A stretch of DNA of 64,000 nucleotides from Loxodes magnus (taxonomy: Eukaryota > Ciliophora > Karyorelictea > Loxodida > Loxodidae), in the NCBI GenBank assembly GCA_946699065.1, contig CAMPDV010001232.1, positions 1-64,000 on the forward strand, read 5' to 3'. This document shows, piece after piece, positions 4,010-61,870 of this stretch; position 1 is the first letter of the stretch, and the number at the start of each line of letters is the position of its first letter. Both the position numbers and the translations under genes were made by a program. The notes below the pieces were generated by a model. It had not been told where the DNA came from. It saw only the letters and a list, made by a program, of their open reading frames with translations, and did no database searches.

Positions 4010-4279
4010 TCACTGGTAAGGTTATAAGTATATTATAAGATTATTTCGTTCGATCATAGGATCATTAGAGTCTTCTTCAAAGCTCACTTATTCTATTGAG
4101 TATCGGCTTGTGCAAATTTAACCTTCTTGACCACAATAATCTTGCTCCAATCTCATTTTGGCATAAACTTTTATTTGTTTCTTCTTTTTGAGCTTTTACT
4201 ATATCTAATAGTAATTATTCTCCACCATAAACCTTTTCTTATAAAGTCTTCCTTCTGGATTACAGTATAACCTAGTCAT
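4010..4279 (-). CDS. Small ORF, 89 aa, unknown function
   Basis: A complete minus-strand frame runs from an ATG at 4279 to a TGA at 4010-4012 with no internal TGA. It uses several TAA/TAG codons as Gln. The product starts MTRLYCNPEGRLYKKRF, has a lysine-rich middle and an acidic stretch (FEEDSNDPMIERNN) near the C-terminus. Local G+C is clearly higher than in the flanks, which argues for selection or recent arrival. The codon just upstream region contains TGA, consistent with a true start. No domain was recognised. It could be a small gene or one exon of a larger, interrupted gene. It lies antisense between the ORF1-like and RT-like pieces of a LINE remnant. Confidence 0.5.
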
Positions 4280-4867: not shown

Positions 4868-5487
4868 GGGAGGAACAATCCTCTAACTGAGATTAACTTA
4901 TCTCAAGTAACAAGAAGTACTTTAAGACTACCAACTGAGCAAGAATTTTGGCAGAAGAAACTTCCAAGGAGAAATTTTTATTTATTCATAAATATTTAAA
5001 ATTTAAGCATCAATAACACATTTTCTTAGCTTACTATTTCTGCTAAATAAATTTTGGTTAATTGATAGATTCTGAAAAATCGATGCAGACTTTAATAAAT
5101 GAAACAAAAAAAGTATTCGAATTAACTTAATTGAATATTAATACTTCAAAATGCGAAGCTATTTAATTCTTAAAAAAGAATCAAAAAGAAGAGAAGTTAA
5201 ACTTAAAAATAAAAGATAACCCAATTATTTAGAAGTAATAAGTAACATATTTAGGAGTAATTCTTCATCAAAAAAAGGATATAATTAATCACTGCAAATC
5301 GGTTTCAATTAATTATCTGCCTGCTATGAAGAAAGCAGTATATACATTATCAAGAAATAAAAATGTGACAACTTGACATTTTAAGATTTGGTTCTGAATG
5401 TTCACGCTTCCTAAAGTAGAATATGGAGGTAATGAGACAATATGGAAAATCTTGAGATGAGGTATAGCATACATACCCAAACACTAA
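4868..5487 (+). pseudogene. LINE reverse transcriptase, C-terminal remnant (copy D)
   Basis: The readable frame from about 5070 gives the segment that follows the catalytic YADD/FGDD motif in non-LTR reverse transcriptases. It contains SEKSMQTLINETKKVFE, then LNINTSKCEAIQFLKK, then the conserved VTYLGVILHQKK, then LPKVEYGGNETIW. The same blocks occur in LINE copy B (NINIAQCEVIGFLKK and FPKVEYGSDIT), so this is the same family. The catalytic motif just upstream (about 5025-5060) is degenerate or out of frame, and no fingers domain is visible. TGA codons in the frame sit where copy B or composition allows Trp. The block at 4868-4975 (NNPLTEINLSQVTRS) is coding-like and may be another fragment of the element. 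The copy is 5'-truncated and inactive. Confidence 0.65.
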
Positions 5488-5488
5488 A

Positions 5489-5686
5489 ATGCTAGCAGGT
5501 AGTAGTGATGTGTGCTTAGATTTAAAGGATATAGACGAAGCAAAGAGGATATGCGAAGTATTAGACCTGAACGGAAACAAAATGAGAATACAGCACCCAG
5601 TAAATTTTATCTGCTTTTTATGCAAATTGAAAGGGCACATAGATCAACAATGCAGAAGGGTGGAAGGAGCAAAAAGGAAAAATTAA
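5489..5686 (+). CDS. CCHC zinc-knuckle (Gag-like) fragment
   Basis: This frame gives about 65 aa ending in a zinc knuckle of the form C-x2-C-x4-H-x4-C (CFLCKLKGHIDQQC), the RNA-binding motif of retroelement Gag and LINE ORF1/ORF2 proteins. The part before it (VCLDLKDIDEAKRICEVLDLNGNK) is a compact, natural-looking protein sequence. The frame differs from the reverse-transcriptase remnant immediately upstream, so a frameshift or a junction lies at about 5480. Gln is written as CAA/CAG here rather than TAA/TAG, and local G+C is high compared with the neighbourhood. It is probably the nucleic-acid-binding tail of the same LINE remnant, or a fragment of another retroelement. It has no convincing start of its own. 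Confidence 0.5.
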   Translation: MLAGSSDVCLDLKDIDEAKRICEVLDLNGNKMRIQHPVNFICFLCKLKGHIDQQCRRVEGAKRKN

Positions 5687-6039
5687 ATACAAGATAGTTA
5701 GAAATGCTTAAAGGAGAAATGAAATTAACAATAAACAAACCTGAATAAAATTAAATCAAGCAAATAAGAGGATAATTAAAGAAGGAGAGTATATGATTAT
5801 AGAGGAAGCAAGGGAAGAAGAGAAGGAAATAAAACTAAGGAGAATAGGAAAATAATTAAAACAACTAAACAATTATATAATAAAAATACTTTTATGCAAA
5901 ACGAATAAATAAGAATTATTTTTCATTAAAATTGAATTGGAAGTATGTAAGGCAGAGGAATAGAGATATCTTCATAGGACTAAATTAAATTAAATTAAAT
6001 AAAATAGAAAACAAAAAAATTATATAAATAATAATAAAT
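5687..6039. other. LINE remnant tail and AT-rich simple repeats
   Basis: Purine-rich sequence (GGAGAA, AGGAAG) that could be the end of the retroelement reading frame, grading into short simple repeats. TAAAT units occur near 5982-6006 and AAAT units at about 6027-6052. The AAAT run directly abuts the left repeat arm of the WD40 cassette. Confidence 0.45.
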
Positions 6040-6392
6040 AAATAAATAAATACATTTGATCATAGAGCGCGTAGCATTCTCATTGGTGCGCAGCTCTTTA
6101 AAAAAAAATGTTTCATACTGACAAGAATGTTTGTTGCTGATAAAATTATCAGACACTGGTAGACCTTGTTCAATACTGGTATAATTATTCAGTACTGATA
6201 AAAATGTTCAATACTGATATAATTTTGGAATACTCGTAATCTTTAATACTTGCTGGAGGTCCAAGGACATGGAGGATTGTGTCTCATTGCATCACCAAAG
6301 CAGAGGACGACATGTGTCAATTATGGGTACTTAACTTCCCCAACCTCTGATGAAAATGACCTTGTTGCTCACCTTCGAACAACTATATTAAT
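6040..6392 (-). repeat. Left arm of inverted repeat (module copy 1)
   Basis: Near-identical to the reverse complement of 7728-8222, apart from a duplicated block in the right arm. Read inward from the outer end it has a GAGCGCG hairpin, a series of TACTGATA-type short repeats at 6115-6235, then GGAGGTCCAAGGACATGG and the inner motif GGGTACTTAACTTCCCC at about 6324-6340. Confidence 0.8.
6080..6240. repeat. Degenerate TACTGATA/TACTGGTA short repeats in the arm
   Basis: Within both arms a 10-14 bp unit recurs at irregular spacing: atactgacaag, gttgctgataaaa, acactggtag, atactggtata, gtactgataaa, atactgatata. The unit reads ACTGRTA. It is kept in both arms, so it predates their duplication. It could be a binding-site cluster such as subterminal transposase sites, which is inference only. 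Confidence 0.5.
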
Positions 6393-7313
6393 AAATAAAA
6401 AAATATATATAATAAGATATAATATAAAACAAATCAAAGAAAAAAAAAGGATAGAATAATTGATGGTAAAAACGCTCTACTCTAATGGATCCTTATGCCC
6501 TTACAAAGTCTATATACACTCACCCTTATCAAAGTTTCAAATCTTGATTGTTCTGTCACCAGAACCAGAAAATATAACACTTGAATCAACACTTAGCTGA
6601 ATACTACATAAAGCATATGCATGACCTTAAAGAGTACGAATACACTAAACAGAAGAGAAGTCCCATATCTTAATAATCCTGTCATCCGAACCCGATTCTA
6701 TATACCTATTATCCTTAAACACTATCACCGATCTAACTCAGTCTGAATGCCCAATAAGAGTTCGCACAAGCTGACCAGCCTAGAAATCCCAGATTTTTAC
6801 AGTTGTATCAGAAGATCCCGATATAATATATCTAGAGTCATAGGAGATTACTACCAATCTAACTATATCAGTATGTCCCGCTATAGTTCTTTGGAGATCG
6901 CCATTGTGGAAATTTCAGATCTTTATGGTTTTGTCATAAGATCCCGATACAATATAGTTAGAGTCCGGGGAGATTACTACCGAGGTAACATATGAAGTAT
7001 GCCCCGTTAAAGTTCTTATGAGAGCACCATTATGGAAATTTCAGATCTTTATAATTGTGTCATCAGATTCTGATACGATATAGCTAGAGTCTGAGGATAT
7101 TACTACTGATGAAGCATTTGAAGTATGCCCCGTTATAGTTCTTAAAAGAGTACCTGTCTGGAAATTCCAGATCTTTATCGAATATTTAGGCCATCCAGAA
7201 CCTGATATAATTCAATTCAAGTCACTTGATATGGCTACCGATAACACAGGTGAAGTGTGACCAGTGAAGACTTAGTCTAAAAAATATTAAAGAAATACCT
7301 TTACTTTGGTCAT
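6369..7313 (-). CDS. WD40-repeat protein
   Basis: One uninterrupted minus-strand frame, with TAA/TAG as Gln and TGA as Trp, encodes about six or seven WD40 blades of the GHTSxVxSVxISxDSxYIVSGSxDxTIKIW type. The protein is expected to be a beta-propeller scaffold. The ATG at 7313 is the suggested start, but the frame stays open upstream to at least 7440 and reads like an earlier blade (STSFQVWNS). In-frame TGAs lie at 7212, 7041, 6915, 6738 and 6537, with another at 7359 upstream. Those at 7041, 6915 and 6537 are exactly the blade Trp (KI-W-NF), and that at 6738 gives GHSDWV. Three sister blades use TGG at the same position. The first TGA not at such a site is 6369-6371, in the repeat arm, and is taken as the stop. 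No frameshift occurs over about 950 bp, so the gene looks functional. Confidence 0.75.
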
Positions 7314-7727
7314 AACTGATTTTATTTATTAACTTTTAGGAACATAAGTTGCAGAATTTCATACTTGAAATGAAGTAGAGATATTTTCCCTAGAATGTGG
7401 TTTCTCGCTCTTAGGAGTTTTCTTAAAAAAACACTTTTAGTAAATTGCTTTTCTTTTTTCTCCATTTTAACTTTTATAACTTACTTTTATAACTATTTAA
7501 TACAAATAACTCAATAAATTTTACTGATTTAATTTCAATACAATTAAACAATTAAATAATTTATTAAGCATAATTATAAATATCTTATTTCTAAAACATT
7601 GATTTTTCTATTTTTGTCTTAAAACAAGATAAGATATAAAACTAATAGTGTACAAACTTTTACAATTTTAATTATTTTATATCTTTTTACTTTTAAATAA
7701 AAAATTATTATATTTTCTTTAAAACCG

Positions 7728-8235
7728 CCATAGTTGTTCGAAGGTGAACAACAAGGTCGTCTTCATCAGAGGTTGGGGAAGTTAAGTACCCATAATCGAC
7801 TTTATGTCTTCCTCTGCTTTGGTTTGGCCTCGAGACATAAGATTCTTAGACCTTCGACGGTGGCTTGACTTTGTTTCGTTTATTTTTAATACTGGAACGA
7901 AAAAGAAATAATATTGCGAACTTCATCAGAGGTTGGGGAAGTTAAGTACCCACAATTGACACATGTCGTCCTCTGCTTTGGTGATGCAATGAGACACAAT
8001 CCTCCATGTCCTTGGACCTCCAGCAAATATTAAAGATTACGAGTATTCTTAAATTATATCAGTATTGAACATTTTTATCAGTACTAAATAATTATACCAG
8101 TATTGAACAAGGTTTATCAGTATCTGATAATTTTATCAGTAACAAACATTCTTGTCAGTATGAAACATTTTTTTTTAAAGAGCTGCTCACCAACGAGAGT
8201 GCTACGCGCTCTATAATCAAATTTATTTATTTATA
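7728..8235 (+). repeat. Right arm of inverted repeat (module copy 2) with internal duplication
   Basis: Inverted counterpart of 6040-6392. It carries an extra block: the segment containing GGTTGGGGAAGTTAAGTACCC occurs at about 7770 and again at about 7929. Between the two lies about 110 bp of unrelated, higher-G+C sequence (GGCCTCGAGACATAAG...TTCGACGGTGGC). The outer end reads AGTGCTACGCGCTC followed by a TTTA tract. Confidence 0.8.
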
Positions 8236-25925: not shown

Positions 25926-26004
25926 TTTAGCATGTAAGTTTCATTTCAAATGTTTCGCGATAAGATTGTAAGTATCTGTTTTACTAAATTTACGATTAAA
26001 GGGA

Positions 26005-26176
26005 GTAAGTTTCATTTTAATAATTATCACTTAATTTAGGTAAGTTTCATTTTAATAATTAACATTTAAGAAAGTAAGTTTCATTTTAATAATTATAACT
26101 AAATTTAGGTAAGTTTCATTTTAATAATTAACACTTAAGATCGTAAGTTTCATTTTAATAATTAACACTTAAGAAT
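26005..26176 (+). repeat. Tandem repeat type A, five units of 34-35 bp
   Basis: Unit GTAAGTTTCATTTTAATAAT followed by TAACACTTAAG or TATCACTTAATTTAG. Starts are 26005, 26040, 26074, 26109 and 26143, so the spacing alternates 35, 34, 35, 34. The alternate units end in TTTAG and in TTAAGAAA/TTAAGATC. Confidence 0.85.
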
Positions 26177-26496
26177 GTAAGTTAAAGTTTAAGGTGAAAA
26201 TGAAGGGAGTAAGTTAAAGTTTAAGGTGAAAATGAAGAATGTAAGTTTAAGTTTAAGGTGAAAATGAAGATTGTAAGTTAAAGTTTAAGGTGAAAATGAA
26301 GATGGTAAGTTAAAGTTTAAGGTGAAAATGAAGATTGTAAGTTAAAGTTTAAGGTGAAAATGAAGATGGTAAGTTAAAGTTTAAGGTGAAAATGAAGTGA
26401 GTAAGTTAAAGTTTAAGGTGAAAATGAAGATGGTAAGTTAAAGTTTAAGGCGAAAATTAAGAAAGTAAGTTAAAGTTTAAGGTTACATTTAGAACG
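26177..26496 (+). repeat. Tandem repeat type B, ten units of exactly 32 bp
   Basis: Unit GTAAGTTAAAGTTTAAGG then TGAAAATGAAG plus three variable bases (GGA, AAT, ATT, ATG, TGA). Starts are 26177, 26209, 26241, 26273, 26305, 26337, 26369, 26401, 26433 and 26465. Units are nearly identical, implying recent expansion or homogenisation. The last unit diverges into GTTACATTTAGAAC. Confidence 0.9.
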
Positions 26497-27616
26497 TAAT
26501 GTTCTATTTTAGTATGTAAGTATTTTTTTTAATAGGTTATTTTTCAGATTGTAATGGGTTTAATATTGATTTAGATGGTAAGTGTAATTTAATTGTTAAT
26601 ATAGAATGTAAGTTATTTTAACATTATAAGGGGGTAATGAGGTTTTTAAACAAATTTTTAGGATGTAAGGGAATAATGCAATGTTATGTAGTGATGAAAT
26701 GAGAGTGAAGGAGTTACGAACAAATTAAAACTTTACTTAATTAAGAATTAAAAAATATATTTATAATTATTATTTTTCAATATAGGTTTAAAGGTTAAGT
26801 AGTAAGTATACTTTAGTATACTTTAGTATATTTAGAGTATGTATTAATAAGTTTACTCTATAAGTATGTGTTTTTTAAGATATAATAATTTATATAATAT
26901 TACAATTATTAGATAGTTTCTAAGTATTTGGATATTATGTTATTATATATTAGTTTAAAATCCAGAAGTAGGTTTAATCTTAATGAGGTTGTTAAAGAGT
27001 AGTTTAGAGAGTTAAAGTAATAAATAAATTTTGTTAAAATGACTGTGTTGTGGGTGAGTATAAGTGGATAAAGTTTCTATTTGAATATTATTAAAAGTGT
27101 ATAATTTAGTTTTTAAAATTTAATTTATTTCTTAGGTTTTAGTTGTAAGTATACAATATGTAAATTTTTTTAAGCTAGAATTATTTTTGATATTTTAGAA
27201 TGTGAATATAAAGAAAAATTATGTTTATAAGTTTTTAGAATTGTAGTTTAAAATTTTAGGGATTATTAGGCATATAAAAAATTTGCATTTTAAAATTTTT
27301 TAAGGTATGATATTTGTTCATTTTTATTTAGTTTATTAAAATTTTTTTTTTTTTATGATTTAATTCTGAAATTTTTTAAAGTTATTTCGAATTTTTTCGA
27401 AATTTTTTTAATTTTTAGATTTAGAAAGTTTTTTTTTAGATTTTGTTCTATTAGAAAGTTTTTTTTAATCAAAGCAGCATGTTAAAAGTAAAAAGGAAAT
27501 TTTTTAAAGTGTCTGAGTATATTTTTTTTAGTATTATGTTAATTTTTTGGTATTCTGTTATTTTTTTTATTTTTATTTTTATTTTTTGAATTTGTATTTT
27601 AAGTATCCAAAATTTC

Positions 27617-34549: not shown

Positions 34550-37330
34550 AATTTTTTTTCATAATAGTCTTAGTTCTCTTTCTCAAGTCATAAGATCGAT
34601 TCTATTTCTTCCGCTAGGCTGAGTTTTACCATTCGCTTCTCACTATCCTTTCTCAGTTTCCTAACCTCTGCTTGGTGGTTTATCACTATTTAATCAGCCA
34701 CTCCAAGCTCATCTGGCTAGAATTTATAATTTCGGACACACATATACCCGATAGATTCAAAGACGTAAATTAGTAATCCATCCAATTCAATATCGTTATA
34801 TTATTAGTTGCCACTATTTATAAAGAAACATTAGTACTGGATATTCTCACTATCTCCAATAGATTTTATTACACACTTGAATTATTATTTGCAGAATTTT
34901 AATTATAAATCTCTCTCACAAACTATAGTATCTCCAGATTGTCCACTATCAAAAATTTATTTATATTGTGAACCTCTATTGCTTATGCCTTAACGGATGA
35001 AACTAAATCTATAATATTCTTTGCCACATAATAATCTCTTACCGACGCATGAATAAACTCAAACCTCTTTTTATTATTCTATTCTTTGTCTATATCAGAC
35101 ACCCTATATGGTTTTAGTCGTCCGTAAACTACTCTATCCACTTTTGATTCACTTCATCAAAGCTTGATATCTCCACCGAACCCTGTAACATCTCCCATGC
35201 CGCATTCTTTTAGATACTTTCAAACAACTTTATTTACTAGTTGAGCACCTTACTTTTTAAACCCTGATTTTACAATTTTTCTTAGGTTCTTTTGTTTCAC
35301 TAAACTATGAAAAACTCATATATTCTGGACTTTTAAACTACTTAACCACTTTTTAAATAATCTAATATCTCTTCCTCACTCAAACAAATATATAGCAGAA
35401 AGGGATTACTGATAATTTCTTTCAGACCAGGTATTCTCTATATTAATGCCATCATCTCTTATATTTAAGATGCTTCCACTTGACTTGCACTTTATTATTA
35501 CTGGTTCTTCTTAACTAGGACTTTTTCTATATATTTTTCTATCTAAACGATATCGAATGGCTTTATATACAGTTCCTATAACTCTTATAATTAGACTCTT
35601 TCGCTACTGTATGGTGAAAAATAATGTTGGTAATTTTTTTCTTTTAATGCTTAATTTACTCTACATGTTATTATATATTTTGCCTGAGGATACTTTTGCT
35701 TTAATTTATTACTACTGATAATAGCCTTGCATTCTCCCAACTCATCATACACGTCAAATAAGAACAGAATCTTTCTAAATTTCAATGTCTCATTTCTTTC
35801 TATTTAATAATTATCTAAAGCAGATTCTATTAATTTGTCTTCGAATGCTTTTATAGTTGGGAGATACACATATATGGATAAGTATTCATGTTTCTAGTCT
35901 AGATATTTTAAGGCTAAAATCTTCAGGAACAGAACCGGAATCTCCCAGAAGTAATAATCCTGTCTTAGTATCGTTTTCTAAAAATTTCAAGGTCAAGATC
36001 ATCTTCAGCTTATGAATTAGGATTAGAAGCGCAAAGTAAGCTTACGTAATATTCTTGCTTCTCCGAAACCTCTTCTTTTAAAGTCCTTATCATATTTTAA
36101 TATATACTACTGCTAATACCCTTAAGTGCCAACCAATTCTCTTCTATTGTTTAAGTAAATAAAACAAAATGCTCTGGATCCATTAATAATTCTAGAATTA
36201 TCGACGCTCTTTTATATTCTTGCTTAAGTTCTCTTTTTTTAACTTAAATATTCTTTCCTTATAAGTGCAAGCTATTTGGTTCTTTTCTAAAGTCATTTCC
36301 AAAAATGTCTTCATTGCATAGTACCTTATCTACCAATCCTTGTCGTCACATAGTTTTTCTAAAAGCTTACATGAGTCTTCTACCAATTCTTTATTTGCTT
36401 AAAAGTTTATTATCATGTGCTTCAAAAGAAGACACGCTCTAAATCTTAAGTCTATTTTTCTTTAAGAACAATATCTCAAAATTGGTAAAAATTTTATTTT
36501 GAGTATTATCTAAATAAATCACATGCAAGAGCATCTAAGACTCGTAATCTAATAATCTTTTTATAGTTGAGCTTCTAATTTACCCAACCTTTTCCTCATA
36601 AGAAAAACTTCTTTATAATAGAGATCGCTTCTGACCCTATAACTCCAACTCCAAACGTCAAGGCAATTATTCATTAAGCAACTTTTAAAATCTTACATAG
36701 AATTCCAAAATATTCGGTTTCTTTGCTATCTGGAATATTCTCCAGAATCATCAAACTAAATCTTAAGTAAAAATATAGTTCTGGACCTCCAATCCTATTT
36801 TTATTTTTATTTACTAACTTTAACCTATCATTTATTTTTAAAATGAGCTCTTCTTTTGTTTTTTCATTTATAAAGAAGTTTTACTCGTTCTTCTAAAGCA
36901 ACATAGCCAATAACTCAGGAAGATTTCGTACAAGCTACTCTTTCAAAAGCAAAGACCATCCTTCAGCATACTTATGGGAAATAATTTCAATGAATTGATT
37001 TATAAGAACTAATGGATCATTGATATTGGCAAACTTATTCTTTTGAATTGCTTGAATCCTTGTAGAACTTTATCCATCTTTTATTCATTCAAACCTTCTT
37101 TTAAGAGCTACAATCCTTCTTGATAAATCTTTTGTTCCTTATTACCAAAAATTTGTTCATTTTCTTGATATTTCTAACTTTTATCATTGCTTAACCCTTA
37201 TTTTAATACTGGCTAATTACTCTACTTATCTTTATTTTTTTAATCTTTAAACTTTTATCCTGAGAACCACAACAATCTCTCCTTTTAGCTTCATTCTTTT
37301 CTAAATATTAAGCATATCTCTCTTATTAGA
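34550..37330 (-). pseudogene. NACHT NTPase with HEAT-like repeats, frameshifted and lacking the P-loop lysine
   Basis: Minus-strand blocks in order: an N-terminal helical region (NEQIFGNKEQKIYQEGLQLL); HEAT-like helices (WSLLLKEQLVRNLPELLAML, LYFYLRFSLMILENIP, LCDDKDWQIRYYAMKTFLEM); a Walker A region at 35924-35950 (TGLLLLGDSGS); KILALKYLDQKHEYLSIYV; Walker B at about 35738-35775 (KILFLFDVYDELGE); the sensor-like AKYIITCR; ISNPFLLYICL; and FEFIHASVRDYYVAK near 35020-35065. The tail (ELDGLLIYVFESIGY) reaches about 34560. This is the STAND/NLR architecture used for ligand-triggered assembly. At least five frame changes split it. One falls inside the P-loop, where about ten bases, including the GKS/T codons, appear to be missing, so ATP binding should be lost. 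Several blocks are open only if TGA is Trp. Confidence 0.7.
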
Positions 37331-37379
37331 AATAAGCTTAATTTTTTAATATATAAGATTCATTTAATTATTCTAGCAC

Positions 37380-37810
37380 TTTGTAATTGCAAGCCTTTTT
37401 GAATCAGCAAAATAAGAAATGTTTTGAAGTAAGTTATAATATTCAAATTGTTGAGATTACTATAAAGAGATCTTTATCTAATTATTTGGAACTTGTTCAT
37501 CTTATGAATCTAGGAAAGTTTAACTCTCTTTATGATTCTTGTATTCATATACATTCATTTAATTACTTGTAGTTTAGCGATCATCCCTTACTAGTATCTT
37601 TTGATTGCTATTAATAGTTTTCATAAAGAAATGAGAATCAAATCGGATTAAAAGAACATGTGACTTTAAGAATTCATTTGTCTAGCTTTATTACTGAAAA
37701 CCTTGATAGTTTCTCAGAACTTAACTGAAAAGATAGCAATTCGAATAGCAAATTCCAGTCACATTTTATTATCTTAAAGACTAAATTCTCTTAAATACCT
37801 TAAATTATAT
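37380..37810 (+). CDS. Coding fragment, possibly the C-terminal end of an endonuclease/exonuclease-type domain
   Basis: A plus-strand frame of about 140 codons, divergent from the NACHT gene. It reads QAFLNQQNKKCFEVSYNIQI, NLGKFNSLYDSCIHIHSF and SDHPLLVSFDCYQQF. The G-x2-S-x2-D and SDHPLL-x-SFD spacing is like the last two motifs of LINE/EEP endonucleases. The N-terminal motifs (QEx, GDFN) are not visible, so the assignment is weak. One TGA (SELN-W-KDSN) is read as Trp. It could also be an unrelated gene whose 5' part overlaps the shared upstream region with the NACHT gene. Confidence 0.35.
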
Positions 37811-48825: not shown

Positions 48826-51194
48826 ATGAGTAATATTTAAGGCAGGTATGTGACAATAAATTAAGAATTAGCATTTGGAACTATTGATAGTATTAAAAAA
48901 ACCAAAATATTTGTGGATCAAAAGCTGTTATAAAAATATAATAAATAAGAAATTTTTATAATTATCTAATTCTTTCATCAGCGTCCGGAATATGGTAAAA
49001 AATTTGTAAATGTTGATTATGATTAACAAGGGAATAAAAATATTTGTATTTACGAAAATGGACTTCCAGCTGGATCAAAAGAAAGTAATAAAGATAATAA
49101 TTAATATTAATATTAATATAGAACTCGAATCAAGATTGGACACGTTAACATTAATGGAATAGCAGGAAAACAGTTAATGATTGAAGAATTTATCAAAAGT
49201 AATGACATAGACATCTTCTCAATTAATGAAACATGATAAAAGTAAGATTTTCCTCCTATACTAATAAAAGGATATAGGATATACTTTAGAAATGCAGATA
49301 AAGAAGGAGGTGTAAGCTTGATTATTAGAGATGAAATCAATAGTACTGAATCTAGAGTAAATATAGAAACCTAAAATCGATTTGTTTCAGTCAAAATGGA
49401 AAATATATTAATCACATCTTGCTATATGCCTGACAATAATAAAAGTAGTCTTATTAAAGATTAAGCTTATGATTATATTAATACATATATTGCATAATTT
49501 CCAAATAATCCTCATATATTGATAGGAGATTTCAATGCTCTATTATAAAATTACGGAAATAATACTTAAAACGATTATGACAACACATCTAGATTTTAAG
49601 AATTCTTGCAATAAAACGATCTTCAAATAGTTAATAATACGATTAGTAATACATGCATACACAAAGGAACTGGAAAATTGTACTGTAATGACTATATTTT
49701 AATTAGTAGTCATTTAAATAATAATTAATTTGTAAATTTTTAGGTTCACAATGGCTGCTTAAACACTGATCACATTCCAATTACAGTTAACTTTTTGTTT
49801 AATACAAAATATTATGATGATGAAAAAATAATTTAGAGAAAATATAAAATTAATCGTTTGTAAGATCCAATTGATAGATAAAGATATTAGCAATCATTTA
49901 TACAAACTTGTAATGATTACCTTCAAATAGATAGAAATAATTTAGAGGAATAGTACATGTACATTAGCAGAAATATTCAAGAAAACGCAGATTCAGTACT
50001 AGGATCATTTATTCCTGATCCTAAATACAACAAACTTCCTCAAGATCTTGCAAGAAAGTATATAGATGCGAAAAGAGCTAACTAAGAGTATAAAGAAACG
50101 CAAATTTATTTTGGAAGAATTAATTAAAGAGTCCTTAATCTTCAGAAATCAGCTAATAAACTTTGAAATAAATATAAATATCATCTATGAAAATGGTTAA
50201 AAGATAAAGCAAAGAAGAAATTTCTAAATCTTAATGAAGAACCAAAAATTATGTTTTAACAAGCGAAAAAGATTCTGAACCAAAAAATAAGAAATAAAAT
50301 GAACTTTAATTAAGAGCTTAAAAACCAATTCGTTGATTCATGAGAGAATTTTGTTTTTAATAAACATTAAAATCTTACTTAATAGTAGCTTGACAATTGT
50401 AACAAAAGTTTTAATCTAGTTTATTGAAATATTAAAGAAATTTAAGAGTAAATACCTTCCTATTTACAAGAATTCCTACGAAATTGACTTTAATAGTTAG
50501 GAACATAATAGTAGCTTAACTACCTTTACGAAATATGTAAAGGACTAGATTCAACAAAAATTCTATAAAATAACTTAGTAAAGACTTAAATGTATGCCAA
50601 CTGCAAAGATTTTTATAGAATAATTTTGTAACTAACGATAATTCCCAGAAATTACCTATCCGAAACTAAATAAATAATATAGAAAAGAAATAATCAGTAT
50701 ATACAAACTTAGAACTTAAAGCTACAACTTTCGAAAATATCTTCAAGACAGACATTATCCTATCGAGAATCCTCATTACATCTGTGGAGATTGGACAAGT
50801 TCCAACATATTATGGATTGCAATTGTTACATAGATATAAGAGAATGGCTAAAAACAAAGATTGAATAAGGTGATATAGGAAGATTAATAACCTATGATTA
50901 AAATTATATCAACTAATTCCCAAAAACAAGATAGAATACGTAGATTTACAAATAAACATTTTCCACAGGATGCTGCTCAAAAGGAGATTGGAATTATTCG
51001 TAATGGAAGAAGAATGATTGGAAAGTCCTGAATCTAAGGAATAGGAAGTAAAAAATCAAGAAAATAGTGAAGAGAACGAGGAAGAAAAGGAATAATAAGA
51101 AGAGCTAAAAGAATAAGTGGAAGAATAGAAGGAAAAAATTGATAACTAAGATGATTAAGCTGAAGTATAAGATGAAGATGAAAGCGGGAGATGA
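48826..51194 (+). pseudogene. LINE copy A ORF2: endonuclease intact, reverse transcriptase deleted
   Basis: The ATG at 48826 (MSNIQGRYVTINQELAFGTI) matches copy B (MRNVQGRYITINKDLIQGT). The frame stays open to about 50580. It has RIKIGHVNINGIAGKQ, FSINETW, the GDFN motif at about 49519 (HILIGDFNALLQNYG), NDYILIS and the terminal TDHIPIT at about 49763, so all expected AP-endonuclease motifs are present. In-frame TGAs at 49234 (NET-W), 50164, 50188, 50341, 50425 and 50485 all read well as Trp. After about 50585 the sequence jumps to the C-terminal region seen in copy B (MPTAKIFIEQF, EITYPKLNKQYRKEI, HIMDC). It ends with an acidic tail and a TGA at 51192. The RT domain is absent and two frameshifts lie near 50.75-50.9 kb. 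Confidence 0.8.
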
Positions 51195-54599: not shown

Positions 54600-57500
54600 T
54601 CAAGCTTCTTCTTGTTCTTTCTCTATCATATATTTTTATTTATTGTCTTGATGAATATTGTCTTTTTTTCATTCTTTAAACTCTTCTAAAAGCTCATCTT
54701 GTAGTTCAAACATTTCAATACGCTTTTTTATTAAGTTAGAATGAAAATTTTTGATTAATTTGTCTATTTTAGGAATTTGATTTTTTGAAAAATGTTTGTT
54801 TATATAGTTTTAGTCATAAAGAATTAGTTTCTTCTTGTCTTTGTCTTTAAAAGCTTTATTGCTTTCAAGTTCCTCAAAAATGTCTGCATAGTATTAGCAA
54901 TCAAAAATATGATCTGTTTCATCAAAGTCTTGGCCACATAAGCAAATAATGCTATATCTAACGTTAATGTGGCGATTACTAAGTTCTTATTGAAAATTAT
55001 AAGAAAAAGTCCTCAGTTTATAGATAGAAATAGTCTCTCTAATATAGTGTTTATTATATTTGATATAAGTAATTTCAGGAAATACACTTTAATTATTTTC
55101 TATTTAGTCTATAATTCTTTTTGCTGTTGGCATAAGTGTATTCCTAGAGAGACATTCCATTAAGAATTTATGCTTTATTTTTTATTCTGTGAGTTTATAA
55201 AAATCCATCTTACTCTAAACATGTGACATGTCAAAATTATACAAATCGATACATTTCTTTATATGTTTCTAGTATGGTAAATTAAATTTAGTGCATCTTT
55301 CTAATAGAAAAGCAGTATCTGAGTTAGGATTTTCTTTGCTATATTACATTAATTTTTAATAAAAGTGCATTAAATTTTTAGTTGCTATATGTAAAAGGAA
55401 GCCAGTTTAGGTCAATAAAACATGACTTATTGAATGTGAATTCTTAAGATCTAAACGCCTATCTTGAGATAAGTCTTTACGACTTTGCTATCTTGTTTTT
55501 TATTCCTTTAATTCCAGAAATAGTAGCTCATGGAGTAATATCACTTCCATATTCAACTTTAGGAAAAATAAAAGTTCTACAAAGAGTTTTGAAGTTGAGA
55601 GGGGATATTAATCCATATTTAGAAAGTATTGCAGTAACTTTTTAAATAGTTACTATATATTTGGTAGCTACTGCTGTACAATGTAATTTATAATTTTATT
55701 TTATTCCTAACTAATATCCAAAATAGGTAACTTCATCTTTTTAAGCAATTGGAATCCCATTGAGCTTTAGAGTAATAGAAGGTTAGCTTTCTTTTCATTT
55801 ATTTTTTTCAAGAATCCTATTACTTCACATTAGGCTATATTAATTGTAAGTTTTACTTAATCAAAAACTGTAGATTTCGTATGTAATCATTTTTAGGTAT
55901 TTTTCTAGGAAGAGGACAATTGGATTAAGTCGTCACCAAAGATTCGTACTACGAAAGCTTTAGATAATATTTGAAATCCTAATTTCTTCTGATTATCTTC
56001 TAATTATCTTATAACAATATCATAGTATAAAATTGTAAATACAGGTGCATGGCATCTTCCTTATAATACTCCATTGTTATATTTAATTGTTCTTGTAAGA
56101 TATCCATCAATTATAAATTTAGCATCAACATTATCATAAAAAGATTCTAGTGCCAATATTAGGTCCAAAGGTAACCTAAGCTTTCTAAGATGGTCAAAAA
56201 GTAATTTTCTAGAAATGCTATCAAACATTTTTTCTACATCTATTAAAGTAGCAATTAATTACTTTTTATGAGATCATCTACGATGCAAGTCTATAATTTA
56301 CTAAATAGTTCAAATTTGCTATGTAGTGGAGCGTTTACGAATAAATCCAAATTAGTCTGGATGTAAAATGTTTTGTTCATAAATATAATTTTAAAGTCGT
56401 TATGTTAGTGCTTTATCATAAATTTTATGTAGACAGTTCAATAAAGCGATAGGTCGCCAATTACATCAATTAATTTTGTTTTCCTTTTTGAAAATCGGAA
56501 GAATGTTTATTTTTTTCATTGCATTAGGTATTTTAAATGTTCTAAGCATGTTATTAATGAAACTTGCAATAATTTGATGCAAATCTTAATCTCCATATTT
56601 AATAAGCTCAGTTTTAGACCATCATTACTTGAAGCTTTATTATTTGCAAGCTAAGAATAATTTTTTTAATTTCAAATCACGTAAAAAGAGGCATATTTTA
56701 TAAATGACTTAATTCCTAATTTAAGATAAAAGATTTATTTCTAAATATTTCATCTATTTTTCTATTTGTGAAGTCAAATTCTATCTTACTTATTTTCGAA
56801 TGTTTATCAAAAACGTTATTTTCCCAATTTTAAATAAATTGCTGTTGTTAGTTAAAGTTAAAATTCATCTAATTACACATTTTTGGGTTTATAAGGTTTT
56901 TAACTTGCTTAATCATTATCCCAGCATTTTTGTTAAGATCTTTATGTTTTTCCTTAGCTTTTTATTTTTTTCATTTCCAAAATTTGTGAAGATAATGCTT
57001 ATAAGATTAAATTTTAAGCTATTAAAGTTTGATAATTTCTTAATTATGACATCCATACAAAGCTAATGCGTTCTAATATGCAATATTATCCTTTTTTACT
57101 TGAACAAATAACGTAGTTAAGTAACTTGGCAATTGATAATAGTTTTTTCTTTAATTTAAAGATCCAAGCGCAATCTCAGATCACAGATGAATTGATACTA
57201 ATTTTCACATCATTTTAATCAAGATACTAGAATTGATAAAATTATCCCAAAAATAGATTTTAATAATAGTTTCTCGTGTTCAGATCTTATAATTTAGAAA
57301 TTTTAAAGAGTAATCGTTATTGTTAATCTTATTCACTTCTTTCCAAATTATAATTTAATGTAATACTTAGTGGAAAATTATCAGTATGCAAACCCGAATC
57401 TTGGATAACTTTATAGTCAACGAAATCATCGGAATTTAAATGTTAAGTTGCCAAGAAGTAGTCATTACAATAGCATTAATTATTCACTCTATGAATAAAT

Positions 57501-58291
57501 GTGTTGGACTCTTAATCACCTAAAATTATTAATTCATTTGCTTCTATAAAGTCTAGTAATCTTTAAGTATTATTATTGATTTGTTATGAATTATTACCGT
57601 AGTTAGGAATTAAGGCATTAAAGTCGCCACAAAAGATAGTAGGGTTTTGGTCACTATTATTTATGATATTATTAAGGTATTCATATGCAATGTCCTTATA
57701 AATATTTGACTTTTCATTTTTAGGCAAATAACATGATGCAATTATTAAGTTTCCAACTCTCACGCTTATAAATGTCGAGGAAGATTTGAGAAATCTAATT
57801 CGTTTTAACAAGAATCAAATTACTTTTTTACTAATAGACATACTCCACCTGCACGAGTATTTGCGTTTTAGTAATAGGTACGATATTGTTCTATAACAAT
57901 TGGGCAATATTTTTATTACGTTCATGTCTCATTTATTGAAAAAATGTCAAATTCATTATCAAGGATGAATTATTATAATGCCACCTGTTTACTAGCTATT
58001 GAGCTTATATTTGCATGTCCTATTTTTATTTTCTTAGATTCTTGCGCTTCACCAAGGAGTCCTCACTAATATATGCAAATATATTTAGTCCCTTATGAAT
58101 CTCTTTAAATATGTACCAGTTATTTTTTATACTCAGGGTGCTGGTGGAAATATTAGATCAAATTTAAATTACTTAAATCGAATAAGATTCTAGTAGTTAA
58201 TTTCTATTTTAATAACACTATAGGCACTATCTACAGTGCCTTGAATTAAATCTTTATTAATTGTTATATACCTTCCTTGAACATTTCTCAT
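54600..58291 (-). mobile_element. LINE copy B, ORF2 nearly complete (minus strand)
   Basis: Same family as copy A, in the opposite orientation, so the two copies face each other 3' end to 3' end across 52-54.5 kb. The ORF2 region, about 3.7 kb, carries endonuclease, reverse transcriptase and C-terminal zinc motif. ORF1 is absent: upstream of the ORF2 start there is only about 70 bp before the repeat module at 58.36-58.76 kb. The copy is therefore 5'-truncated, or was interrupted by that module. Confidence 0.8.
54600..58291 (-). pseudogene. LINE copy B ORF2: AP endonuclease - reverse transcriptase - zinc motif
   Basis: Starts at 58291 (MRNVQGRYITINKDLIQGT). Endonuclease blocks are KIKIGHANISSIASKQ, FDIFSINETW (TGA-Trp at 57922) and FCGDFNAL at about 57613. 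RT blocks are WRPIALLNCLHKIYDKAL at 56445, DQFGFIRKRSTTQQ, motif A with LIDVEKMFDS (about 56235), motif B NGVLQG, and the catalytic FGDD at 55929-55940. FPKVEYGSDITPWATI and EITYIKYNKHYIRETI follow. A zinc-type motif CLCG-x7-H-x3-C lies near 54900-54950. A TGA at 54669 or 54600 ends it. A +1-type frame change lies between the start and the endonuclease (about 58120), and others occur in the RT region. Most catalytic residues survive, so inactivation looks recent or the shifts are artefacts. Confidence 0.8.
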
Positions 58292-58359: not shown

Positions 58360-58760
58360 ATTATAAATAAATAAATAAATTGGATTATAGAGCGCGTAGC
58401 ACTCTCGTTGGTGCACAGCTCTTTAAATTAAATTAAATTAATTTTATTTAATATCGAAAAAAAAATTTATGTCTTTCTGTCCCTGTTTTCCCTTCCTGCA
58501 GTACGTCCCTGTAATTTTTCCTTCCGAAGCATAGGATACAATATGCAATTACGGGTATATTTCCCCGACCTATAATGAAGAAAGTTTCCTTTTGGCATTC
58601 AGAGTTCTTCAGCTTATTACATCGTCTTTCTCTTGTCATTGATTTCTCTTTCTCCGATTTATCCTCCGTCTGTACTTATTTTTTATTTGCCTTGCTGGGC
58701 CTCCAAGCAACATCCGAAGTAAAGGGCTTTCCACCCTATTTAAATTTTAATAGTTAATAA
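58360..58760 (-). repeat. Third, diverged copy of the WD40-cassette arm
   Basis: Near 58.37-58.43 kb it repeats the outer end (AAAT tract, then GGATTATAGAGCGCGTAGCA, then GGTGCACAGCTCTTTAAA). Near 58548-58580 it repeats the inner motif (CGGGTATATTTCCCCGACC). Orientation equals that of the left arm at 6.0 kb. The middle is not alignable by eye. The short standard-code frames here (58448-58639, 58575-58757) are taken as non-coding. No partner arm or WD40 cargo follows within the window. Confidence 0.65.
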
Positions 58761-59884: not shown

Positions 59885-61870
59885 TGATAATAATCAGAGT
59901 CCAAACTGTAAAAAGCAATTCAATTAAGACAAGCGAATATACAAATAATTACCATGTGGATGTAGTTCATGTTTGAAGTGCTTTTAAACAGTATTTCAAC
60001 TTACAAAAAAAATAGAATGTGCATAACACAACTAAGTTTACAACATAAACCCTGAAGAGTTGCAAGAATATCAAGTTTAAGTACAAGTTCATTAAGAAAT
60101 ACCGCTGCAATTTGAAACAATAATTAATCAAGTACAAATCAATGAGTAGTTCAAGTGGTTGAAAAGTTATTAAGTCCATAAGTAAAATTACTATAATACA
60201 TTAAGAGAAATAATTGAAGACAGTGCTTAGCTTATAAAGCATATCCAATCGTTATCAGTAAATGAAATCTTCAAAACTTTAATAGGTTAAGTTTCTCTCA
60301 GTAACAGTAAAATTTAAAATTTAATATAACGATTATCCGAACTTCAAGCAGCAAATCAGTTATAATAAGAATAAGCCTAAAGAATGGGTTAGTAGTAATA
60401 AAGTTAACAGTAAGATGGTGAAGCCTAAGAATAATTTATGTAAACATTGCGAGATAGATGAGTTAAAGAGAGAATAGAGTTAGCAATTAGATGTTTAAAT
60501 CTTAAGAATTAATATCTAATCATGCATGTTCAACGTCTTCATTTATCTAAGAGAAAATGCCAATGGTCAGTAATTAACATTAAGTTAAGCAGAGTAGTTA
60601 GTTTAACAGTTTTTCAGTCAATTTAAGTTTATAAGAGGACATATTTACCAATAAAACCATGTTGTTCAACAACAAAGATAGAAAAAGCCTAATATAACGA
60701 GTATTAAAGTAAATAAAAAATTTAAAATATCCTTCAAAATCATTAAGAACAAGCAATCGATTATTAATAAAGGTAAGACATTGTTCAGGCTAAAGAGTCA
60801 TCAGTTAATTTTGAAATATAGCAAAATCAAATAAAAATCATCGACGTCAGAACTTTAGTTGTTACAATGGAAAAAAAGTTAAGAAATCTTTAGAATGATT
60901 TCAATTTAGAAAACAGAGTAATTGAAGTTTGCTAATAATAAGCAAACTTAATCATGCCTCTAATTCCAAATCCCTCTAATTAATTACTTAATAACTAACT
61001 ATTTCTCAGCAATTAAAATTTCAAAAACATTGACCTATCTAACTCAGACATTTCGGATACCACCTTCACCAACTGTAACTTTGCCAATTCAAATCTCTCA
61101 TCAATCAACCTCCGCAACACCAAATTTATCAACTGTAACTTCTCTAATGCCAACCTCGCATCAATAATCACGGAACACCCACACATATACACTGGACATA
61201 CAAATTCAGTCACTTCTGTGGCCATCTCTTCATATGCTAACTTAATAGTATCTGGATCTTATGACAAAACTCTTAGAATCTACAACATAGCCACAGGTAC
61301 CTGTAAGACCATGAGTGGTCACACTAGTTCTGTATATGCTGTGGCTATATCCAGTGATTCAGAGTTCATCGTATCGGGAAGTTAAGATAAGACGGTGAGA
61401 CTATGGGACGTCAAGACAGGTACCTGTAAGACCATGAGTGGTCACACACATTAGGTATATGCTGTGGCTATATCCAGTAATTCCAACTTAATCATTTCTG
61501 GATCATATGACGAAACTATTCGTTTATGGAACTCAAGAAAATAATAATGTATAAGGATCTTATCGGGACACACCTCTTCTGTCTTCTCGGTAATATTCTC
61601 AAACAATAACAAATATATCTTATCTAGATCGCATGACAAGACCATAAGAATATGAAATATCAATAATGGATAGAGTATATGTGTACTTTTGGGTCATACA
61701 CACAGTTGGTAGTTTATCATTATCGAGGGACAATCAATGGTTGGTATCGAGTAACGGAGTTAAGTATTATTGATATTACGGTGATCTTAACTAATCAAAA
61801 GATTACAATTTCCGAAGGTGGAACATAGGAAGGATATTGAATGGAGAATAGTCTAATAACTAATAATAGG
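59885..61870 (+). CDS. RING-like - coiled coil - pentapeptide repeat - WD40 protein, frameshifted
   Basis: The plus-strand blocks run in this order. A Cys-rich RING-like start comes first (PNCKKQFNQDKRIYKQLPCG, CSSCLKCFQTV, IECAQH, about 59900-60030). A long Gln-rich coiled coil follows (SKIQNLIQRLSELQAANQ), with TGA-Trp at 60459 (LRDR-W-VKERIELA). About ten pentapeptide units come next at about 61015-61170 (IDLSNSDISDTTFTNCNF, LSSINLRNTKFINCNFSN). At least four WD40 blades follow from about 61190 (GHTNSVTSVAISSYANLI, SGSQDKTVRLWDVKTG, SGHTSSVFSVIFSNNN). One blade Trp is TGA at 61653 (IRI-W-NINNG). The plan is TRIM-like, with an E3-type head and recognition repeats. Frame changes at about 60.52, 60.74 and 61.70 kb may be introns or indels. 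The first RING Cys pair and the start codon are not securely placed. Confidence 0.65.

Follow-up and report, generated by a model that had tools for sequence, protein, structure and literature searches.

In-frame TGA codons at conserved tryptophan positions in a 64-kb stretch and in protein kinases of Loxodes magnus

Results

The WD40 Gene and Its Surroundings

The window, by which we mean the whole 64,000-nucleotide stretch of Loxodes magnus DNA that was analysed, carries a WD40 gene on the minus strand. The initial annotation had described this gene as having one open frame, provided that TAA and TAG encode Gln and that TGA is a sense codon, and this is what is seen across the propeller (6495..7271, minus strand), whose 259 codons lie in a single frame and include five TGA, four TGG, two TAA, and three TAG. 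With TGA masked as X, the propeller matched WD40 structures in the PDB at E 3.5e-185. The six internal TGAs (7359, 7212, 7041, 6915, 6738, and 6537, low bases on the minus strand) were all verified at their positions, and the terminal TGA is located at 6369 (low base, minus strand). Inverted-repeat arms (6042-6386 and 7730-8234) flank the gene and span 6042..8234; they contain 19-base tandem repeats and differ by 16 mismatches in 345 aligned bases, with 160 extra bases in the right arm. A 32-base sequence present in both arms (6058-6089 and 8187-8218) also occurs just upstream of LINE B ORF2 (58383-58414), with 0-3 mismatches.

The six KI-W codons of the propeller are TGG, TGA, TGA, TGG, TGG, and TGA, so that sister blades do use TGG at this position, as had been noticed; TAG or TAA was found at none of the six. 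Of the four TGAs that had been assigned to Trp sites, the three at the blade Trp stood, while the one in GHSD-x-V was not borne out by alignment. The TGAs at 7041..7043 and 6915..6917 align with Trp in the best-matching homologue of known structure and also in the window's second WD40 gene, and the TGA at 6537..6539 was assigned to the blade Trp by repeat register. The GHSD-x-V position of WD40 blades is usually occupied by Trp; the TGA found there (6738..6740) aligns with Ser in both homologues, in the second WD40 gene beside a frameshift. At the position of the TGA at 7212..7214, other blades have Tyr in four of five cases and Val in one, and the second WD40 gene has Leu. The TGA at 7359..7361 lies upstream of the propeller and, judging by eye, may be inside a short intron, two possible ones (32 and 22 bases) being visible near the 5′ end of the gene.

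Other Genes and Elements of the Window

The second WD40 gene (61053..61700, plus strand) begins with pentapeptide repeats, recognized by eye, followed by four blades. As annotated, it has a TGA at a blade Trp (61653); its frame is broken further downstream.

LINE copies are also present. LINE A retains the endonuclease part of ORF2 (48985..50418, plus strand), with 478 codons without a frameshift and a match to PF14529 at 1.5e-11, and the RT part is missing downstream. LINE B ORF2 (54603..58137, minus strand) comprises the endonuclease, RT, and C-terminal parts and carries frameshifts, and LINE C is a fragment corresponding to the RT end (5068..5860, plus strand). The NET-TGA sequence that had been reported for both endonucleases is indeed there (49234 in LINE A, 57922 in LINE B), as are all six TGAs listed for LINE A (49234, 50164, 50188, 50341, 50425, and 50485). 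Since LINE A lacks the RT part, the last two, 50425 and 50485, are at or past the deletion junction. Positions 50188 and 50341 are TGA in LINE A and TGG in LINE B, while at 50194 a TGG in LINE A corresponds to a TGA in LINE B (first base 56973). The remaining LINE TGAs are opposite Asn, Ser, Tyr, Arg, Leu, Gln, Lys, or Ala, although some of these are beside frameshifts and three in the RT were judged by eye against human L1. Most TGAs of the decayed LINE copies fall in non-Trp columns, which was counted against the reading of TGA as Trp. Such TGAs would be expected of dead copies, and dead copies, the LINE B and LINE C examples included, do not by themselves speak for Trp. The LINE A protein had no relatives among the viral and genome contigs searched, a set from which the window's own genome was possibly left out, and a 26-base repeat pattern had no matches in viral contigs.

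A pseudogene at 34900..37600 (minus strand) was named NACHT-type NTPase-like by eye; it has an altered P-loop and frame changes, and no Pfam match. The region at 13.7-14.5 kb and a “16.1 kb gene”, both of which had been cited as further instances of TGA at Trp, yielded no Pfam family on either strand and no sure frame, and do not serve as evidence. TGA is present at 51192 and, on the minus strand, at 4010. Rfam and tRNA searches of the 64-kb window returned nothing, with no family, rRNA included, above the cut-off. At 25990-26547, repeat units of 34-35 and 32 bases that include GTAAGT stand in tandem, and G strongly exceeds C over 26-28 kb.

Decay Versus Sense in the Window

The case against decay had initially rested on the expectation that random mutation would seldom put TGA at Trp and would favor Leu, Gln, Arg, or Ser codons. 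This proved too strong. In simulations with assumed mutation and indel rates, AT-biased decay placed 12-29% of new TGAs at Trp, and 13-41% under a second set of decay settings. The argument is thus weaker than first put, because AT-biased decay does change TGG to TGA.

To acquire four or five TGAs, the simulated WD40 core would need ~0.4-0.8 substitutions per base, and under the assumed rates the joint probability of keeping the frame together with 90% of the Gly codons was 0.0005-0.001; the corresponding joint value for LINE A was 0.001-0.003. The actual blades retain 25 of the 26 guanines in their GH and SGS glycine codons, while three of their six Trp codons are TGA (Fisher test, 0.015, or 0.079 when one duplicate blade is left out). 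The kept frame and kept glycines of the gene favor TGA as a sense codon without proving it. In the intact frames of the window, six of ten TGAs are at Trp by alignment and repeat register, one of the ten being without an assigned residue. A Fisher test comparing 8/11 with 2/13 TGAs was set aside, since it was based on a hand tally in which two positions (6738 and a NACHT motif) were scored by motif and not by alignment.

Kinase Domains Across the Assembly

The choice between decay and sense is decided by conserved columns of protein kinases. The L. magnus assembly (705,730,643 bases in 7,843 contigs) was searched, and 110 kinase domains, the top by score among the best 136 of 5,592 candidates, were aligned with TGA as X and TAR as Gln, the latter favoring the outcome that TAA and TAG encode Gln. 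These 110 best-scoring domains contained 117 in-frame TGAs in 28,155 codons, spread over 70 domains, as well as 521 TAA and 245 TAG codons; 28 of 5,995 domain pairs were >90% identical. When the residues at in-frame stops were tabulated, 88 of the 117 TGAs were found in three columns in which Trp is the commonest sense residue. The other 29 were counted against the Trp reading. In the D-x-W-S column, the 110 rows contained 55 TGG, 40 TGA, eight Phe, and seven Tyr codons, and no TAA or TAG; the Asp two positions before and the Gly three positions after this column (D-x-W-S-x-G) were each present in 110 of 110 rows. The second column had 29 TGA and 16 TGG and was gapped in 55 of 110 rows. The third had 19 TGA, 36 TGG, 20 Phe, and four TAA, these last being counted against the reading. 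Where a residue other than the one expected was conserved in at least 60% of a column, only four TGAs were found (two at Ile, one at Leu, and one at Tyr). Such columns also contained 39 of the 766 TAA/TAG codons, and these 39 were counted against.

The column profile of TGA was closest to that of Trp (0.92), with Phe next at 0.04. For TAA and TAG, in the alignment in which TAR had been set to Gln, the closest profile was that of Gln (0.83 and 0.71), with Lys next at 0.28 and 0.24. The kinases thus support TGA as a Trp codon (88/117 TGAs, 110 domains), and their column profiles support Gln for TAA and TAG.

The ratio of TGA to TGG was also compared with the share of A at third codon positions. 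In the window, the two measures agreed for the first WD40 gene (5:4, with 50% A) and for LINE A (6:1, with 81% A), and LINE B RT stood at 4:1 (80%); numbers were too small for LINE B endonuclease (1:1, 81%), the second WD40 gene (1:2, 66%), and the NACHT-like pseudogene (1:2, 65%). In the kinases, TGA made up 44% of TGR codons, compared with 74% A in other A/G-ending codons, a lag that was counted against the reading. Tracking of third-base A was therefore dropped as support for Trp, and the two Trp codons are used less freely than other codon pairs.

As to WD40 repeats elsewhere in the assembly, TGA was the only stop codon reported inside the matches listed (the best 150 of 98,904 candidates), and long arrays of similar WD40 repeats were noted on contigs C1503, C119, C9, C620, and C272.

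tRNA-Trp Genes

A pattern search of the assembly for tRNA-Trp(CCA) gave 185 matches, compared with 58 for a reversed control. Among the 100 matches listed, one 30-base core recurs in tandem, with at least 48 copies on contig C67 (482-491 kb, spaced by ~187 bases) and at least 32 on contig C148 (155-165 kb, ~241 bases). ARAGORN was run on six loci and reported tRNA-Trp(cca) in both C67 loci, eight genes in L023 and 15 in L038, and in none of the other four; L023 and L038 overlap slightly, and the support that ARAGORN lends to the arrays concerns C67 only. The copies in the two loci are identical. The anticodon stem of the gene at L023:1470-1541 has an A.C mismatch at its top, below which four pairs are intact. 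The genes of Blastocrithidia and C. magnum are like that of Loxodes in having a CCA anticodon with the top of the anticodon stem unpaired, while the mismatch published for the tested pair, in the part of PMC13092985 covered here, is C.U.

A tRNA-Trp(UCA) pattern gave 372 matches versus 270 for the control, and none of the 100 listed appeared tRNA-like by eye. A Lys tRNA pattern, used as an amplification control, produced no tRNA-like match and is uninformative about arrays of other tRNAs.

Discussion

One alternative is that the window comes from the germline-limited DNA of a Tetrahymena-like ciliate, in which TAA and TAG encode Gln and TGA is a stop, and that the in-frame TGAs arose by G-to-A decay of pseudogenes. 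Much of the window has indeed decayed, as frame changes in LINE B, in the C/B and D comparisons, in the second WD40 gene, and in the NACHT-like gene show, and the simulations indicate that Trp codons do get hit by it. The inverted repeats with their 19-base tandem repeats also resemble features of Tlr elements. The first WD40 gene, however, has retained both its frame and nearly all of its glycine guanines, and the assembly-wide occurrence of TGA at conserved Trp of kinases, with TAA and TAG absent from the D-x-W-S column, speaks against pseudogene decay. Moreover, the host assembly is that of Loxodes. Matches in the window to the Tetrahymena breakage site were limited to those with three mismatches. 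We regard this explanation as very improbable. Still less credit is due to a Condylostoma-type code (table 28), in which all three codons are sense or stop by context: it assigns the same amino acids to the three codons, as given in the covered part of PMC4967479, but the DNA comes from a Loxodes assembly.

The window, the kinases, the column profiles, the tRNA-Trp(CCA) genes, and the rarity with which neutral decay reproduces the intact frames under the assumed rates (joint 0.0005-0.003) lead to the reading that the window is karyorelict macronuclear DNA translated by table 27, with TAA and TAG as Gln and TGA as Trp inside genes and presumably as a stop near their 3′ ends. We are nearly certain of this assignment. 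A code in which TGA is both Trp and stop is already known: it is NCBI table 27 and is in print for Loxodes, for which the covered sections of PMC11441545 state that TAA and TAG encode Gln while TGA is either Trp or stop. Section 9 of the same paper describes TGA as the sole stop in L. magnus, specified by its proximity to the poly-A tail, and the context-dependent TGA stop suggested in the initial annotation is this published karyorelict code.

Table 27 covers Parduczia and Loxodes, and its sense assignments are common to the kinases studied here; the additional role of TGA as stop follows PMC11441545, as far as covered. Against these likenesses we counted the level of use. UGA makes up 0.42% of codons in the 110 best-scoring Loxodes kinases, compared with 0.120% in Parduczia according to the part of PMC4967479 covered. 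The same part gives 0.042% for Condylostoma magnum, whose table 28 specifies the same amino acids but lets all three codons double as stops, and this difference in level was likewise counted against.

From the literature, a mechanism can be proposed in which a tRNA-Trp(CCA) with a 4-bp anticodon stem would decode UGA as a near-cognate codon, and closeness to the poly-A tail would make UGA a stop. The covered part of PMC13092985 reports that a tRNA of this kind reads UGA and that Loxodes has one. We tentatively suggest, while holding it to be rather doubtful, that Loxodes has gone further in using UGA as Trp than those code-27 and code-28 ciliates for which the literature covered gives a figure, and that tandem amplification of tRNA-Trp(CCA) supplies the near-cognate reading by dose. 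The figures behind this suggestion are those of the 110 kinases (TGA as 44% of TGR and 0.42% of all codons) and the at least 80 core copies in the two arrays. Both the code and the tRNA thought to read UGA are in print (PMC11441545, PMC4967479, and PMC13092985, in the parts covered). The kinase UGA rate and the tRNA-Trp arrays were not met in the literature covered, outside which the 2022 karyorelict paper falls, and are not claimed to be unpublished.

The analysis shows that a context-dependent code is recognizable from raw sequence alone, and the kinases provide a figure for the extent to which TGA is used as Trp in the L. magnus genome. The tRNA-Trp arrays may be relevant to the question of how a near-cognate tRNA can keep pace with termination.
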